Shown: one piece after another, positions 3,301 to 37,700 of the stretch
Layout of the letters: each line of letters starts with the position of its first letter
How positions within the stretch are numbered: the stretch's first letter is position 1
Assembly (NCBI GenBank): GCA_000310025.1
Contig: FN649754.1
Span: 739,825 to 782,522 of the forward strand
Source of the DNA: Ectocarpus siliculosus
Taxonomy: Eukaryota; Sar; Phaeophyceae; Ectocarpales; Ectocarpaceae
Direction: 5' to 3'
DNA length: 42,698 bases
Program-made: the position numbers and the translations under genes
Notes under the pieces: generated by a model
The model's database searches: none
The model's input: only the letters and a program-made list of their open reading frames with translations
What the model was told of the DNA's origin: nothing

Positions 3301-6300
3301 TGAGGGCCCGGGTCTTGGTAACCCCTTAAGTGTCAGGAGATAACGTCGTCGCTATTCGGGGCCGGGTGGCTATGATAGCGGCCATCACTGTAGTGGGGTT
3401 GACTGTAGCGGGGGTGCAGTGGTGCCACGCCATGATTCTGTGGTCGCTACATGCAGGGGCATGCCTCTAAACAGGGGGTCGCTCAACTGGGCCTACAACC
3501 GTAGATAGTTCTAGGAAGATTTGCTGCTGTGGGCACAAACCAGGGGCCACCCACGTCACCCGGGCGTCAAGATTTTTTTTTATTATTTTGTTGCGTGGTG
3601 GAGGTTCAAGTGGAGAGGCGGCTGGATCATCGGCGTGATGCATGTAGCTGGGATTGAGTTTTCAACGGCCAGATGAAAGGCGTGGTGGGCACCGTGCATT
3701 CCGTCCGTGATGACACCGCACTGCTGTTTACGGTGCATTGGTGGCGTGTCCATCTATGTTGCCCGGGATGCCGCTACGTAGCCCATGTCGCCCAACTCAT
3801 GGCGTGCCTACCTCGAGACTGCCACAAACCGGGAGCACACGATACGCATCCAAAAACGAACCGGAGATAGCCCGCATGTTCACAGTGTGTATCGTCTAAA
3901 TAATTTCTTGTGGACGCCGGGTTGTTTTAGACCTGTTCGGTACCACATTTCTGGTTGTGTCAGCCAGGGTTGCTTGCACGCGGGAGAAAGGTTGCACGGC
4001 AGTGTTGCTTGCTGTTTTGTTCAAACTATCTTCCTTCTGCGGTGCTTTGCTCATTTCTTTTCGCGAGAAGGATTCAACGAGCGCCCCTTCGGTCCACAGC
4101 AGTAACGTCCACTATACACCCCACGAGCGTAAAGTCATACGAATATCATTTTTGCCGTTCTCTGGTCGCCTCGATTCCCATCATCGTGCATCCGTACAAC
4201 CGCCGGAAGATGAATCCAGCAAAGTTCCACCATACACGCAAGACGTATTTTTTTCAAAAATGATGTAACGTTGTCGTACGCCCTCTGGATGGCCACGAAC
4301 AGACTTCGGCACTGTTCAGCGCGGCCAAGAAGGCGGAAGAACAGCAATCGAACTCCGTCGCCGCCGTCGAAGACGATCGCAACCTTCTATCCAAGACTGG
4401 CTTCTTCATGCTCTGTGCCCTTGGCACGGCCGACATATCACGGGTATGCCTACTTTCCCGTGCTACATATCAGCTCTTACTGCACAGGATCCTACTGAAC
4501 ACGTTTGAAACGCTTGGTTAACGTTGGCATTGTCCTTCGAAATTAGAATGATTCGGAATAATTGTTATCTCACGGGTATGCCTGCTTTCCCGTGCTACAT
4601 TTAGGCTTTTTTCTGAATTGGATCCTACACGTTTGAAATTCTTGGATAACGTTGATATTGTCTTTCGAAATTAGAGTGATTCGGAGTAATTGTTACGCAG
4701 TGTTATCTTCTCTCGAATACATGTTGTAGTTGACCATGTGGATTGTCAGGAGTGATTTTCTGATGGTTTACTCTATTGAATCTACTCACAGAGTACTGTA
4801 CGGTGCTGGTATTGTTCTCTTTGCTTGCTCTCTTGCAAAATTTCTCATATTTGACCTGCAAAGTTACCGTAGGTTGTAGGAGTTCAAACCAGCCAGACGA
4901 TCGTCTACGATCCCTCCTCTCGACGAAGCTCGACCCTCAGGCTTTCTTGATTGATTTCACGGCTATTTTGCTTCGGTTTCGTTGTTTAGGTTTCCCTACC
5001 CCTTTGCACTTAAGATACATGGGCGCACCTTGTTTGGCTGCTACGCCGTGCTTCGCTTGCCCTTGCGATCGTCCCTGGCGATAACTGCATATTCACTACT
5101 GTCATGCCAACCATATGCCTTCATTTGTTGAGCCTCTTGCCGTTGGTTCACCAGTTCCACAGTTTGCAGAGTTCGATTTGTCGTGTCCGAGCTGTCCCAG
5201 GGTCCCAGGTATACGTCATCTGCGTTGTTTTATTCAATCCGATGCTGTGCTTTCGAAGAGGCCAAATGAACGCTCGTAGTGTATCTGCTCGTTCGATGCA
5301 TTCCACTTCTTTTGCTATACCTGACCTTATTCCGTCATGGACCTTGTGCACGTCCAATGTCACGCTTTCGAAGAGACAGCACGAACACATGAAACGCATC
5401 GGCTCGTCCCAAAGTATCTGCTTTGCCTTTTTCAGTAATTCTGACCTTGCGCGCTTCCTCTGCCGTGCCCCCGAAGACGCAAAACGAACGCATGAAAATG
5501 TACCGCCGGAGCCGCCGGAGAAAGTCCGGAAGGAAGTGGGCGCGAGCTCGAGCTCGACTCGATGGTCAGTTTTTTGTTTTTTTTCCGCGTGCCAAGCGTG
5601 ATCGTATTCCGTTTTGGGTTTGCTTTAGCTTACAATTTGACGGTGCCAGGGTATTTAGTGGTGGCGCGTTCTGTTGTCGCCGTTGGGTTGTCCATGCAGC
5701 CTGAATTTCTGAACTGCCAGATTTTCAAGTGCAGCAGGCGCGTTCTGCAATTATCTGTCCCACGGACGAAAGCAACGAACGAAGCGAGTCTCAGACGAAA
5801 TAATAAGAGGTTTCTTGAGAGCGGGTTTCTTCCGCACAACAGCAGGGGAGGATAAACATCCATTCCGTTCGATTGCTCGGCACCGCTCTTCCTTAGCGAA
5901 GATGATGCTCATTCCCCTCGATTCTCTGTAACCGGGTGGGTGCCAGACTGAACGGTATGCCGTGCATCGTTTGGAATGCAGTCTGGTATCAAAAATCGGG
6001 TGTACTCTGTATGTGGTAGCTGTCTTTGGTTCGGCCGCCTTTTGTTGCAGACCGAAAATCAGCGATCAAGGTAACCCCGGTGGGGCTTTCGCCGCCCCTT
6101 CGCGGCACTTGCGGTCGTACTCAAGTAATTGTGGTTGTTGTTGTTGTTAATTGTCTTGGCATTCCAATCCATTCTGGTCTCTGCTCTGTACCCTTTAACA
6201 TCCGTATCAGTCCAACTTTCGCCATGTCTTCCGTAATCACAGGGGATAGATATCAGGAGAACGTTTACTTGTTGCCGCTTTTCTTGTCATGTCTGCGTTA

Positions 6301-20140: not shown

Positions 20141-23100
20141 AGATCCTTTGGACGAACGGAGGGCCGGGATGCAGCGGCATGCTTGGCCTCTTGACTGAAC
20201 ACGGACCTTTCCAGGTGAGCCCGCGAAAATTCAGAGTATTCAGAGTAGTATCTGTATGTCTTCGATATGTCTTCCAACAGATGGAAACCCCACGTCTTCA
20301 CTGATGCTTGCTGCTAGCGACTGTTTTCTTTTTTTTTTTTCGATTCGAGCTTTTTTCCGCGTCCTCCGATTGCACGCCTTCCAAGGGATTAAAACCCCAC
20401 AACTGCACAAACTTTTACCGATAATGATTTTGTTTTTCGGGGCAAGCCTTGTCATTTTCTTCGCTAAGTCACGCACTCCCATGTGTTGTGAGAGCCTTTT
20501 TGTTTTTGCTAGCCAGTTGGGCTGACTTGAATTTTCGAATGTGTTGATTTTGATTTTTGATGTTTCAACTTTATTTTTTCCTTTTCACACACCGTTGATA
20601 CTCGGCCGGCGTTCAGCTTGGTGTCGTTCGTGCTTTTCCCAACGAACAAAATAAGCCTGGTGTCGTCTTGCATTCATGTGCGTGACGGGGGCAGGACAGC
20701 AGTTTGCCCAAGCAGCCTCCTATCCTTCGAGTTTGCCCAACAAAACCGATGTTGTCTTCGATGCGTGACCGGGCGGGGTAGGGCAGTTTGCCCAGGAAGG
20801 TTAGAATCCTTTGTGTTTCGCCGAAAACGGACCGAAATCGATGTTTTCGTACGTACGTACAGGTGCGTGACGGGGGCAAGACCCTGGTGGACAACGACTA
20901 CTCTTGGAACAAGGTCGCCAACATGCTCTACGTGGAGATCCCCAGCGGCGTGGGCTTCAGCTACAGCGACACCGTGACAGACTACCAGGTGATGACCTGG
21001 CGCTCTCTGTAGTTGGATTTTGGTTTTGGTTCTCGCATCAAGCGCTGTTCGGCTCAATGTGGAACTGCTGTTAAGGACGACCTGTCCCTCTCTGCCGGTG
21101 CGTGTCTTTTTACTAGCATCGACCGCGCAAAGCAGCTGACCAATGAAAAGACGCCAGTCTCATAGTGCGCGGCTAAAATCGGAGTACGCTCGTAAAGGCC
21201 ATGATCTGGGACCTCGTCGGGGGAGGTCGTCATGGAGGAAGCTAGGCTATTTACAGTACTTGTGCGTGTTATCACAACCCCGTGTTAGCGTTTTTCTACA
21301 GCGTATTTCTCCACAACCAGGGAGGTATCACCTCCGAAAAGGGTAGTTTTGGAAGTTTTGGAACCATCTCGTCGAGGGGTTTCCGGAGAGGTATCGGTTG
21401 GGTGTTCGCACCCTTCTAGTTGTGGAGAAATACGCTACAGCAAAAAGCTAACACGGGGGTGCGATAACACGCGCAATTACGGTATTCCATGAGTGTGCGA
21501 GGCCCATATTCTGGCCCCCGTCTACAGTACACACCTGTCGGCGTACGTGTCAGACGTATCAGCCGAGGGCACGCACATGAGGGAGGTAGTGCAGTTCTAA
21601 ACGTGGTTCATGTGTACAGGTACCTCTTTTTGACGATCGTCCGCCGATTGTGTAGACGTGCCTTGCTTCCAAATCAGATCCAGCTTTTTGGAAGGTAATA
21701 ATACATCGACATGAAACCGAATTTGTACCGATTTACTGAAACTATGGGAAGGGAAGAGCGTTGCTGTGGATTTCTCAACGGCAGCGAACCGTCTTTGGTT
21801 GCGCCGCTCCTCGCTCCTCACGCGCGTTCAGACCGGGGACGACAAGACCGCCGTGGACAACTACTGGCTCGTGCAGGGCTGGCTAGACCGCTTCCCTCAG
21901 TACCGAAGGTACAGGCTTCTTGTTTTTGTTTGTCGGCCATTTATGCGTACGCTTGTGCACGAAATATGCCGGCCTGATTCGCATTCGTATCTCTAAACAC
22001 AAGTGAGAAAAGCACTGACTAAACGAAAAATATACAAAAACGGAATAAAATTGCATATGACTCTGCGTCGGGGTGGAAGTGGACTCCGTTGTGTCACCCA
22101 GACGGTGGGAGAATTAGCCGAGACGTCAAGGTATCACCTTTAACGACATGCTTGCGTAGTTTGCGCCAGACATAACCAATACCAACCGCCAGAACCACGG
22201 GAACGAGGGACAGATTCACACCAGGGACGGGGCCCTGCAGTCTGTAGCTCATCCATACCCAGGAGGCCAGAGGCCCCGGCATTCCATGTCTATAGATCGA
22301 ATGCATCCCAAGTTGTGTTTGGAAAACTTGCTCTTGCAGGGCTGACTCGCTAGACCGCTTCCCTCCTAAAGATACACTTATTTTTTCGTTCTCTTAAGGC
22401 ATGAATACAGCGCTTGCTCACGAACTTAGTAGAAAAGTACCCAGCAACTCAAGAATCAACGATAAAGAATACGAAGTAGTAATATGAAAACACACAATGT
22501 TGTCGTAGTAGACGAACACATGGTACGTGACATAATATTGATAGCATGGTCTTCGAGTAACATGTTCAGAAGATCTCTGCTGTTCTTCACTTGCCAATCC
22601 TCGACTTCTCGAAATGCCATGTCACCTAGCCTCGTAAACAAACATCACCGCGGCTAAACCGTACACCAACAACGCCTGTTGTGATTGAGGTTCAGGCGAG
22701 AATGCTGCTGTGCTTGCCTTACACGGGATTATCCACACACGCAGGTTATTGCCTGTACAAGCGTTTTCCGTTGCTCATTGGTAAGCCAGTCAAGGTTGTC
22801 ACTTGATGTTGCTTGTCCGCTCTCTTGCAGCAACGACTTCCACGTCTCGTGTGTTTTCGTCTCGTTCTAAGGCTATCGCTCCTTTGCATGGGTAACCCAA
22901 TGCACGTGTCCGTCCGTACCACAGACGTCTGAAAGAACCACACATATATATATGGAGTATAACTTTTGATGTTGATCATCCCCTTTGCCTTGCGCCTCTC
23001 TTGCAGCAACAGCTTCCACATATTTGTGTGTTTTTATCCCGCTTTCAGGCTGGGATCTTGGCGTATGTATCCAAATCAGCGCTATCCGTGCCAAAGAGAC

Positions 23101-26100
23101 AGGTCTAAAAGGACCTCACACAACACCACTTTTGATGCGGCTCATCCCCTTGCCTTGCGCCTCTCTTGCGGCTACGACTTCCATATACTGGTGTGTTGTT
23201 GTCCCGCTGTGAGACTGGGATCTTTCTGCATGTGTGTCCAAACCAGCGCTGTCCGTGCCACAGAGAGAGGTCTAAAAAGAAGCTTATACAAGGCATGACT
23301 TTTCATACTGCTCATCGCCCTCTCTTGCAGCAACGACTTCCACATCTCTTCCGAGTCGTACGGCGGTCACTACATGCCCCAGCTTGCCGAGGAGATCCTC
23401 AAGAGGAACGAGAAGGTCAAGGTGGATGGGTCAGCCCCGGTCATCAAATTCTCAGGCTTCCTCGTGGGAAACCCCTACACGGATGCGCGCTCCAACCAGG
23501 TATGTACTACGCAAGGCGGCTCCGTGTTTGCACCGTGTAGTGCTTATCCATTCCGTCACGCGGACTCCGGCTTCCTTGTGGGAAACCCCTACACGGATGC
23601 GCGCTCCAACCAGGTATGCACTACGCAAGGCGGCTCCGTGTTTGTAACGTGTAGTGTTTATCTATTCCGTCACGGGGACTCCGGCTTCCTTGTGGGAAAC
23701 CCCTACACGGATGCGCGCTCGAACCAGGTACTATACAAGGCGGCTCCGTGTTTATGCGTGTAGTACTAACCCATTCCGTCACGCGGACTCCGGCTTCCTT
23801 GTGGGAAACACCTACACGGACGCCAGATCCAACGAGGTACTATTCAAGGCGGCTCCGTGTTTGCAGCCATATTCGTGTACAGTAGTATAGTACTTTCTGT
23901 CATCCCGTCACGAGGACTCCGGCTTTCTTGCGATAAACCTCTACACGTACGCATAAGCGCGATCTACATCAGGTGCACAGAGGCCTCTGTGTTGGTCGGG
24001 TTCCTCACTTGGTAGTACTGTATGTACGGCCTTTCCGACACTACGAGGACAAGGCAGGCGCCTAACCGTGTCTAAATCGTCTTGACTTTCGACCGCAGTG
24101 CCTGTCGTGCGTGTCGTCCTGAATTATACCGTACAATTTCACGCCCCCCGGCTGCTTACTTGCCTCAAAATAGGTGGCGCAGTACGCCAAGTACTGGGGC
24201 GACCAGCTGCTGCCCAAGTTCGTGTACGATGACTGGCGAAAGATGTGCGTGGACGAAGACGGAGGCTATCTCTCCGGAGCCAGCAGGAGCGATGCTTGCG
24301 AGGGGTTGGAAGAGACCATGGACGGATACATTGGTGGGTGGGTGTGCCGAGGAAGAAGTTACCGTAGGATGCGCAAGATACCGCATCCCCTGGACCGATT
24401 TTCGAAGCTCGATTTCTCGGCAGGAAAGTGGTGACGTCGCCGAAAATTGAAAATTGCAGCGTTGGACCCGTCTCGTCGAGAGCTTTCCAAATATCGCTTG
24501 ATATCGACATCTTCTTCGTGGAGAATCCGAACTTTTGAAAATCGGTCCAGGGGGTGTGATATCTTGTGCAACGTACGGTAACCTAGAGAAGCGATACCGG
24601 GATTGGATATTGTGCCCCCTCCATGTCCGACTCTTGATTATTTTGTTCTGTTTTTTTCTTCCAACCTTGACCATAATCGTTCTTCAACACAAATTGCGCA
24701 CTCCAACGCATGCATGTAAAGTGACATGTTTTATGCTGCACTGCTTGTCAAGCTTGCATGCATTGGAGCTTTGAAACTCGGTCCGTGGGTGTGGTACATT
24801 AGGCATTCTATTCCCTTTTGTGCACATTGCTATTCTATAATTAGTCGTCGCCGTGGACGGTGTTTTTTAGGCCTTTGTGACCCTAACATCGCAAAACCCT
24901 TCCATCATTTGCGCAGCCCCACCTCAACACCAATCTTATATTCCAAACCGAGCCCCGTGGGCACGCGAAGGCTAGCTCAGCACGTTGTTCCGCTTGCTAT
25001 TGCCCTTCCAGGCAACGTGAACCCGTATGCTCTGGACTACCCCATGTGCACCGGGGAGAGCGGCACTACAGTGGCGCACGCACAGCGCCTGGCCATGCGA
25101 GACCACCACCTTGTCGCCTGGATGCAGCAGCGGCAGACTGAGGAGGCTGAGGGTCGCGTGGGTTACACTCGTCCCGTTGTGGAAAGGGCTGCACCGTACG
25201 AGCCGTGCGCCGAGGACTACACCATCCCGTGAGTTGGATCTCTTGTCTTGCCATTTTTTTTTTCTCGCGTAATTGCGATTGTTTCACTCCTAGTCATGAG
25301 TGCGGAAGGGGTAAATTTTGACGCATTTGGGAGGTTCGAAGGAAAGTCGGATCGAATGTACTGGGCGGTGAGCCGGTTGTGTGTCTTGTTGATGTCGTAG
25401 TCGTCGTCGTTGCTGATCTTCTGTTCTTGTTTATGTTGTGTGGTGGTGGTTGTTGCTGTTGGTATTCATCGTCTTCATCTCATGCTCGTTCTCTTTCCGG
25501 CTTTTTCTGCTTCTCTTGAGACCTTTGCAAATGCCAAATGTTCTCTCGATAATCGTTTGTGCAACACGCCATTGCCGTGAGCTAGCAATTCCGACGCGCT
25601 TGATATCCACCACATCTACGGCTTCTGCTCCACGTCCGCCACAGGTACCTCAACCGCCCCGATGTGCAGCAGGCGTTACGCGTGAGGGAGGGGACGGTGT
25701 GGGAGCAGTGCTCGACGCAAGTGCAGTACAAGACGTCCCATATGCTGCGGCCCATGATGCCCTACTACAAGAGGCTACTGAACGACTACGATGTCTCCGT
25801 CCTCGTCTTCTCGGGGGTGAGGTTTTGGACTTTTGGAGGCGGCTTGTATGCGTCCGTGTGTTGTGTGCGTAAGTGACGTCACGCTGTTCATGGAGTTTGG
25901 TTGGTATTAGGAAAACTAAATACACACAGAAAGACTACCCGTTGGAGATATACCTACATTAGTATGTTTGACTGGTTTGGTTTAGCGAGAGAAGGGATTT
26001 TGCTCTGGATCAAGCGCAGGGAGTCCTGAGTGTCTTCGCTGTCGGAGGCTGCGACGGGAGGTTCCATCAAGTGGCGGTTTTTGTTTTCGGAAACAGGGCT

Positions 26101-34701: not shown

Positions 34702-37700
34702 GCAACAATAAGCAGCAGCGGCAGCAGGAGTCAATGGTCCCCACTCACCAACTCAAAGCATTCCTCGATCGTGTAGCACGTGACCGGAAAGTTTTCGTCT
34801 TCGCCTGAAACCCGGAGAGAACGGTAGGTCGTGGATAGTGACGTGCACTCGAGAAAACGTCGGAAAAACCGGAGAAGGAAGTAACACCTTCACCCGCTTC
34901 AAGTTTTCAAGATATACATACCCGAAAATCCGTACTTGTACCTTCATCTCAAAACATCAGGAAACGTATGGTGTGATGCAAGGACTCCCAATGCATGCGC
35001 CCAAGGATCGACATGAAAGACGTTGGTAAGTGACTACGAGGACTCTAACGCATGTACTGAGAAGCCTGACCAAGTTCACGGGAGGCTGCCGAACAAGCTA
35101 GTTCAGTCAGCCTCCGTGAAAACGACATCCTTCCGCGAAACAGAACCAATTCCACGGCATACCTCCGTAGCATTCCGCTGCCCCGTAGCAACCCATGATC
35201 TCCTCCTCGTAGAACGCTTGCAGGCCGTCCTCCTGCCGCACCGCCACCTGACAGTTTCGCCAAATTCGAAAACTGTTCTCGAAACATATCTCGCCCGTCC
35301 TCCTCTACTGCACCTTGTTCGTCTTCGCAGAAGCGAAAATCTCCGAACGAGCACCAGCCAGAACAACCACCGTTTTCGGTTTTAAACAAGCCCGGCATGA
35401 CCGTGAAAAGTGACAGTACGATATCAAAATCTTCAACGCTAAACGGCGGGGATATCCGTCCCACCGCAGAAGGCGAGGGGAGCATATTCTATAGTGGTGT
35501 CGTTTTCGTTTTCGGCCGCTTGATGGCTCACCTGAGTATGTGGCACTGCTCCATTCTTTAGATCGTCCACCCCGAAAGACTGGGTAGTACGAAGAGAAAA
35601 ATATCGAAACAGACAGACAGACAGACAGACAGATAAAACGACACCAACGCTCAGGGTCAATGAAAACGAGTGTCATCCTATTTGCGAAGCGGCGGACAGC
35701 AAGACCAGGTGGCTTCAATATATGATATAACTTCTATTGCTACAAGGTGAAAGCTACAACTAGAGCAAGACCCCGTCTCGAAATAATAGCATCGCATGAA
35801 TCGACAGGGAATGCAGCAGAGCATAACGCGACGCATGCACGATGTGAGACAAAAAAGAATGTAACTCGTTGCACGAGCTCTACAAAAATGACAAAAGGAG
35901 TGACAGGACCGCCGCCGCCGCCGCACCAGGGCCTCCTCCTTTTCTGCAGCAAGGAATGACGCCAGCTCGGCGGTGAAGGACGCCCCGAGGATAAAGCACG
36001 CGAACATCCACCCCGACGTCAGGATATAGCTCTCGACGGTGTAGGGCTCGTGGGCCATCTGTCCCATCAGCAGGGCCCCCGTCACGTACGACGACATCGC
36101 CATGCCCTGGTTGGGTCGTCGCGAAGAACGTCGGAAAAGAGGGGGGGGGGGGGTAGTCATAGTCGTGCATGCCGTAGTTGTTAGACCATTGATCTCGCAT
36201 CGCTACAAAGCCGGGACGGGGGTGGGGGGGGGCGTGGGTACTCATAGTCGTGCATGCCGTCGTCGTTAGACCACCTCGCATCCCTACAAAGCCGGGACGG
36301 AGCACGCCGGGTTCTGACCGGACTAGGCTCACATCACCAAGCGCGAAGCACCGTGAGTTATTCGGCGAGTCGCATGAAGGGTGCGCTGCATCCTGCTAAG
36401 GGTGTTCGGCATCTTGTGCTTACTTCCTTGCCTACGGATGACAGCCGCGTATGACTTATTTTATTTTCTGATGCTTTCACTTCCATAGACAGTTATGCGT
36501 TGTGTAACTGCCTCCAGGATGCTTGGCCATTTTAACACAACGTGGTGCGATCCTCCCCCTTGCGCGGAGTGAGGTTTCTCGACCCCGCACAACACGATCT
36601 AGTCGACCACCATTCATGGTTACCGCCAAAAAAAAAAACGGAGGTAAAAAAAAAAGCGGTAACCTGGTTGCCGAGTTCACGAAGCGAATTGGCTTGTTTT
36701 ACAACGTCGTTGCCAAGCGACGAAAACCCAACCCCGATGGCAAACACCGGAGGGAGGAGGGGGGGGAGGGGGTGTACTCATAGTCGTGCATGCCGCAGTC
36801 GTTAGACCATTGACCTCGCATCCCTACAAAGCCGGGACGGGGGTGGGGGTACTCATAGTCGTGCATGCCGTCGTCGTTAGACCATTGACCTCGCATCCCT
36901 ACAAAACCGGGACAGAGCACGCCGGGTTCTCACCGGACCAGGCTCTCACATCACCAAGCGCGAAGCGCCGTGAGGTATTCGGCGAGTCGCATGAAGGGTG
37001 TGCTGCATCCTGCTAAGGGTGTTCGGCATCTTGTGCTTACTTCCTTGCCTACGGATGACAGCTACGTATGACTTAATTTATTTTCTGGTGCTTTCACTTC
37101 CATAGACAGTTATAAGCGCCGTGTAACTGCCTCGAGGTTGCTTGACCAATTTTAACACAACGTGCGATTATCCCCTTTGCGCGGAGTGAGGGTTCTCGAC
37201 CCCGCACAACACGATCTAGTCGACCACCATTCATGGTTACCGCAGAAAAAAACCGAAGGCAAACAAAAAAGCGGTAACCTGGTTGCCGAGCTCACGAAGT
37301 GATCGGCTTGTTTTACAACATCGCTGCCAAGTGACGAAAATCCAACCCCGATGGCAAACACCGGGGGGGGCGGCTTGTTTTACAACGTCGTTGCCAAGCG
37401 ACGAAAACCCAACCGCGATGGCAAACATCGGGGAGGGGGGGGGGGGGTTCAATGTGGGCGTGTGGGGGAATGATGGGGGTTTGAGTATGTGTTTTCTTTG
37501 CAGTGGCCCCACATGGCAAGAAATGGTGTATCGAATATGATACTATCTCTCAAAGCTATGGACGATTATGTGCCTGGTTTTCGGGCGGCTTGCGCGGGAG
37601 AGAGGAGTAGAGAGCACCGGAAAAGGCAGGACAGCACAATAGGATTGTTGAAAGGACAAACTAGATCTAGAGGAGATCCTGGTACAGTGGGGGTCCCTCT

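Follow-up and report, generated by a model that had tools for sequence, protein, structure and literature searches.

The S10 gene and its catalytic-serine exon

The window, being the complete 42,698-nt stretch of DNA that was analysed, contains an intact gene for an S10 serine carboxypeptidase on the + strand, at around 19.5-27 kb. The gene was recognized in a Pfam profile search, in which the open reading frame at 23299-23763 matched PF00450 (56.8 bits, cut-off 21.9, E 3.3e-15) and other exons matched as well, and serine carboxypeptidases were likewise recovered in a comparison with the PDB. The amino acid sequences ESYGGHY, FSG/DDDAVC and HYAGHEVP (a slash marks a border throughout) are all present in open exons, and we take them to be the motifs of the catalytic serine, aspartate and histidine, respectively. 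The catalytic-serine exon (23331..23499, +; acceptor 7.86 bits, donor 8.61 bits) is the source of arrays on both of its sides. It joins in phase 0 to the exon that was read in the sequence at 24174..24337 (+). The start of the latter offers two candidate in-frame acceptors, 24174 and 24183, which lie 9 nt apart (AATAG/GTGGCGCAG/TAC) and score 3.46 and 3.15 bits.

The genome that contains the window (189 Mb, 492 contigs), eukaryotic as judged from the spliced genes, has two S10 paralogues. These match at only 43-48% in the catalytic-serine exon and are therefore too distant for the dating of codons. A search for relatives in viral_contigs yielded none, and the search in genome_contigs a single match (48% over 29 residues), in a bacterial bin.

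The donor-side array

The initial annotation described five tandem copies of the end of this exon together with its donor, the first two spacings being 114 bp, and both points hold. There are five in-register copies, the starts of which are 114, 114, 109 and 129 nt apart, and the donors, read directly at 23500, 23614, 23728, 23837 and 23973, are spaced by 114, 114, 109 and 136 nt. The repeat was recovered by TRF (23451-23863, period 114, 3.7 copies, score 586) and by self-blastn (23451-23823 versus 23565-23952, 84% over 393 columns, E 1e-116). The repeated piece had been described as the last ~45 coding bases plus the donor; the copying is real, but it involves a whole unit of 114 nt that begins at 23451 and comprises the last 49 coding nt of the exon and the first 65 nt of the intron.

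Unit 1 (23451..23564, +), with the real exon end, donor CAG/GTATGT at 23500 and 65 intron nt, is followed on the same strand by copy 2 (23565..23678; CAG/GTATGC at 23614) and copy 3 (23679..23787; CAG/GTACTA at 23728), both of which have their donor in frame. Copy 4 (23788..23916, +; GAG/GTACTA at 23837) is shifted in frame and has a 4-nt deletion within the intron part in common with copy 3. Of copy 5 (23917..24030, +, ends approximate) the exon part has decayed, and CAG/GTGCAC is found at 23973. The GT is kept in all four copies of donor 23500.

The exon parts of copies 2, 3, 4 and 5 differ from the real exon at 2, 3, 8 and 21 of 49 positions, respectively. Copies 2-4 depart from the exon in eight distinct codons, six of them synonymously; with random placement of the same substitutions, at most two replacements arose with P 0.0021. 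Such a bias is what one would expect of an exon that remains coding and of copies that retain older codons, in which case the array would also record the order of duplication. At TCC and CTT the exon stands alone against copies 2-5. Copies 4 and 5 share a state that is absent from both the exon and copies 2-3 at the third position of an Asp codon and at a site near an Arg codon. If copy 5 is taken as outgroup, the changes on the side of the exon would appear to be synonymous, as polarised by eye on a copy that aligns poorly; this is the pattern anticipated for a coding exon that gives off dead copies.

Copy 3 differs from copy 2 at 1 of 49 positions in the exon part and at 10 of 49 in the intron part (Fisher 0.008), and the latter in addition has the deletion shared with copy 4. 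On this pattern copy 3 is a mosaic, its exon part being apparently young and its intron part older. The conserved exon parts of copies 2 and 3 were considered as a sign of function and set aside, as exchange between copies, to which the shared 4-nt deletion points, fits them equally well.

Other border arrays in the gene

The initial annotation missed the array on the acceptor side of the catalytic-serine exon and two more border arrays, and the gene thus has four: at acceptor 20863, donor 21909, acceptor 23331 and donor 23500. The acceptor-side array of the catalytic-serine exon (22820..23348, +) consists of copies of CTCTCTTGCAG/CAACGACTTCCAC, with the first exon-like base at 22831, 23007 and 23172 (AG lost) and the real one at 23331. 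It is the copy lying farthest away, 22831, that resembles the real exon start most closely (29 nt at 97%), and the order seen in the donor array is absent here.

The preceding exon end (21863..21908, +; ...RFPQYR), with donor 21909, is the source of one border copy, which is found in decayed form 463 nt downstream (22326..22365, +) and in which the GT at the border reads AT. The scored part of this match is wholly exon-side; weaker similarity continues across the border. At exon start 20863 (GTGCGTGACGGGGGCA) the acceptor-side array (20675..20882, +) has copies at ~20676 and ~20763, both without AG, and just 3 intron-side nt are included in the scored match. Straddling is for these reasons less certain at 20863 and 21909, whereas the duplicate does cross the exon-intron border in the arrays at donor 23500 and acceptor 23331. 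GT or AG is lost in four of the ten intron copies (1/5 donor copies, 3/5 acceptor copies). Per copy, 46 and 49 exon nt are carried on the donor side and 18 and 20 on the acceptor side. No purely intronic arrays were found when these were sought in the S10 gene.

Splice-site strength and reading frame

Donors were scored with a model for which 115 exon ends, themselves picked by a model from outside the window, served as the training set; the percentiles refer to these ends. Donors 1-5 score 8.61, 6.81, 3.96, 3.39 and 6.48 bits, i.e. the 69th, 43rd, 14th, 10th and 39th percentile; the outermost donor, 23500, is the strongest of the array and the strength drops after copy 2. The acceptor copies at 22831, 23007 and 23172 score 6.97, 9.37 and 0.95 bits, and the second of these outscores the real acceptor 23331 (7.86 bits). 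Given the usable strength of donor 2 and the score of acceptor copy 23007, some use of the copies is quite possible. Use of any of the three acceptor copies ahead of the catalytic-serine exon results in stops.

On the donor side, the frame was said to remain open from the exon through the third copy, and indeed the stop comes only after 23763. Use of donor 2 or donor 3 would, as had been proposed, add 38 or 76 residues, lengths that agree with the translation; donors 4 and 5 give a frame shift and then stops. As 47% of the intronic positions of the gene are open over 66 nt and 20% over 132 nt, the open frame of the array is unremarkable. We found no coding constraint in the insert frame when the intron parts of units 1 and 2 were compared, five out of six codon changes being replacements.

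Origin of the arrays

Taken together, the arrays are probably the leftovers of recurrent tandem duplications that straddled exon borders, with copies that are spliced out with the intron and are near neutral; we put the probability of this reading at about 0.74. A duplication that begins within the exon and extends into the intron would leave the original border outermost. We infer that the spliceosome keeps using only the outermost donor 23500 or acceptor 23331; everything behind would then be removed with the intron, which would make the event close to neutral. Additional rounds of duplication, together with unequal exchange, would produce longer introns and mosaic copies, with older copies decaying. 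The exon-edge sequence repeated at four borders of one gene, between flanking exons that are open, fits such a course, as do the graded decay on the donor side and the position of the strongest donor. The same holds for the mosaic copy 3, the loss of GT or AG in part of the copies, the stops behind the acceptor copies and the contrast between largely synonymous exon-copy differences and freely changing intron parts. Several observations fit less well. Donor 2 lies near the middle of the range of donors, one acceptor copy is stronger than the real acceptor and every copy of donor 23500 still has its GT. Nor does growth from the exon side apply throughout, given the position of acceptor copy 22831, and two of the four arrays are less certain to straddle their border. 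Finally, neutral placement alone would seldom bring every one of the four arrays to a border (product of fractions 0.006, calculated post hoc), and something may therefore favour borders.

The initial annotation had offered, as one of two readings, a set of competing 5' splice sites, in which donors 23614 and 23728 would both see functional use and give variants of the carboxypeptidase that are longer by 38 or 76 residues. Part of this stands: donor 2 is of reasonable strength, and both donors are in frame behind an open sequence. On the other hand, donors 3 and 4 are weak, the insert is unconstrained, open frames of this length are common in the introns of the gene, and the insert would repeat a segment adjoining the active-site exon of a conserved fold. 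We consider functional use of this kind unlikely, and the sequence gives no sign that the copies serve new protein variants; low-level use of donor 2, adding 38 residues, is possible.

Borders as possible preferred sites of duplication

Next to neutral duplication as such, the borders of the S10 gene could be preferred sites of repeated tandem duplication, with the copies stamped out, perhaps, by some process linked to splice sites or to transcribed borders. Borders were searched with 70-nt probes against at most 1.4 kb of adjoining sequence, and scores were judged against a cross-gene null (99th percentile 26, maximum 33), the border positions being picked by a motif model and not from RNA. 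In the S10 gene 5 of 18 borders exceeded the 99th percentile; one of these is a TC tract and the remaining four all exceeded the null maximum. At loci outside the window this percentile was exceeded by 7 of 213 borders, including three above the maximum of 33. The latter were rejected as border copies, since the match at L065 is intron-side only and those at L064 and L018 are GGC/GCC repeats, and thus a non-simple exon-edge copy above the null maximum was found at 0 of 213 borders elsewhere in the genome. Among the matches between the two thresholds, that at L057 crosses the border within a CAG repeat and those at L058 (1612) and L074 are intron-side. This leaves donor 3901 of L058 (exon-bearing strand) as the sole, weak candidate for a border copy outside the S10 gene: 15 exon and 5 intron nt recur ~330 nt downstream with 18 of 20 nt identical and a score of 30, below the null maximum.

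With border copies defined as matches above the null maximum that include at least 15 exon nt and no simple repeat, a definition set after the hits were seen, the difference between the S10 gene and the other loci (4/18 versus 1/213, L058 counted) gave a Fisher P of 1.3e-4. Without L058 the value was 2.6e-5, and without both L058 and the donor originally reported 3.4e-4; as the S10 gene was picked because of the finding, all these values make the contrast look stronger than it is. The control exons belong to conserved families (kinases, mitochondrial carriers, DEAD helicases and the two S10 paralogues), and some matches share one open frame. The excess of border copies, the lack of purely intronic arrays in the gene and the similar exon reach per side speak for a preference for borders, but they all come from one gene, and we regard such a preference as quite improbable. 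If borders are truly favoured, this would point to mutation by a process linked to the ends of exons, and introns would hold a dated series of past exon codons, along with splice sites that new exons could take up as they are.

Possible use of the copies in splicing

Two further possibilities involve the splicing machinery itself, and we judge both to be very unlikely. In the first, each CAG/GTA would act as acceptor as well as donor, and the intron would be removed recursively in steps of 114 nt. Copies 2 and 3 do read CAG/GTA, with 6.81 and 3.96 bits as donors and 5.45 and 5.13 bits as acceptors (31st and 26th percentile), and the length of the unit is divisible by three. There is also a precedent in human UBC, for which tandem dual-specific AGGT splice sites, whole coding monomers repeated at 228 nt and measured isoforms have been described (PMC10809524). 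The S10 array resembles UBC in having AG/GT at regular in-frame spacing, but its unit is an exon end plus intron (49 + 65 nt) instead of a whole coding module, and its use in splicing is putative. Moreover, the bases ahead of the CAG are exon-derived and without a clear pyrimidine tract, and copy 4 as an acceptor ranks at the 2nd percentile.

In the second, the copies would form a decoy or enhancer array that binds U1 or U2 without being spliced and tunes the inclusion of the catalytic-serine exon. The presence of extra donor copies behind and acceptor copies ahead of one and the same exon would suit this, and a splice-site decoy array had been the other proposal of the initial annotation. No excess of strong sites was found, however. 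With a cut-off of 6.4 bits the array intron has 2 donor-like sites, and 116 control stretches of similar length, which start 40 nt downstream of a domain match, average 2.16 (61% of them hold at least 2). In the preceding intron 3 acceptor-like sites reach 6.9 bits, where 111 control stretches average 3.98. The array copies are thus unremarkable against the ordinary load of donor-like sites, and the decoy proposal finds no support in these counts.

An assembly artefact is hardly credible, for although tandem repeats are prone to misassembly, the copies differ with graded divergence and form four separate arrays with different periods.

Relation to known systems

The nearest case found is that of potato RdRp, in which a tandem duplicate across an intron-exon boundary gave a new intron, confirmed by RNA reads (PMC4974935). 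Tandem duplication across such a border is in this sense already known, and the S10 duplicate likewise straddles an exon-intron border and carries splice signals. Compared with the potato case, the S10 arrays differ in that they contain up to five units, occupy four borders of one gene and show neither a new intron nor a new exon. The arrays also share with tandem alternative splice sites the presence of several donors or acceptors at one border. The sites in PMC8055015 are in 'close tandem arrangement', while those of the S10 gene lie 109-176 nt apart and stem from duplicated DNA. Multi-border arrays of the S10 type were not found described in the literature searched, a statement that holds for that literature only.

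The S10 arrays would provide a clear natural case of introns that lengthen at their ends without the gene being broken, and of spare splice sites that arise before any exon uses them.

Other arrays in the window and at control loci

Local arrays of any kind are more frequent in the window (11 in 42.7 kb) than in 258 kb of gene loci (13; P 1.6e-5). Of these 13, 11 lie at least 94 nt from any domain match, 12 arrays having been placed by sequence and the one at L054 by coordinates. The array at L054 falls within two exons of a mitochondrial carrier, and we took it as internal homology of that family; the array at L065 shares 30 nt with a domain match, where the sequence is a simple tract rich in TGG. 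Those at L013 and L064 are one dispersed repeat. A repeat with a unit of ~67 nt (...TTTGCCATCGGGGTTGGGTTTTCGTCGCTTGGCAACGACGTTGTAAAACAAGCC...) occurs at 36141-37445 of the window, at 2448-2650 of L013 and at 4558-4759 of L064, and given these three places it looks like a dispersed element.

Two more two-copy arrays in the window, each with a period of ~132, are possibly border arrays as well, the exons concerned being without homology support. The one at 4435-4695 begins with CACGG/GTATGC directly after an open frame (...KTGFFMLCALGTADI), and its donor-like site is repeated in the copy, both scoring 5.30 bits; the one at 1413-1650, possibly on the acceptor side, ends with CAACCAG/GACGTC ahead of the open frame DVELMVLSYGVIMFIFLLALVP... 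Finally, an exon of a ligand-gated ion channel (PF00060, 31.7 bits) was found on the - strand at 35678-36202.
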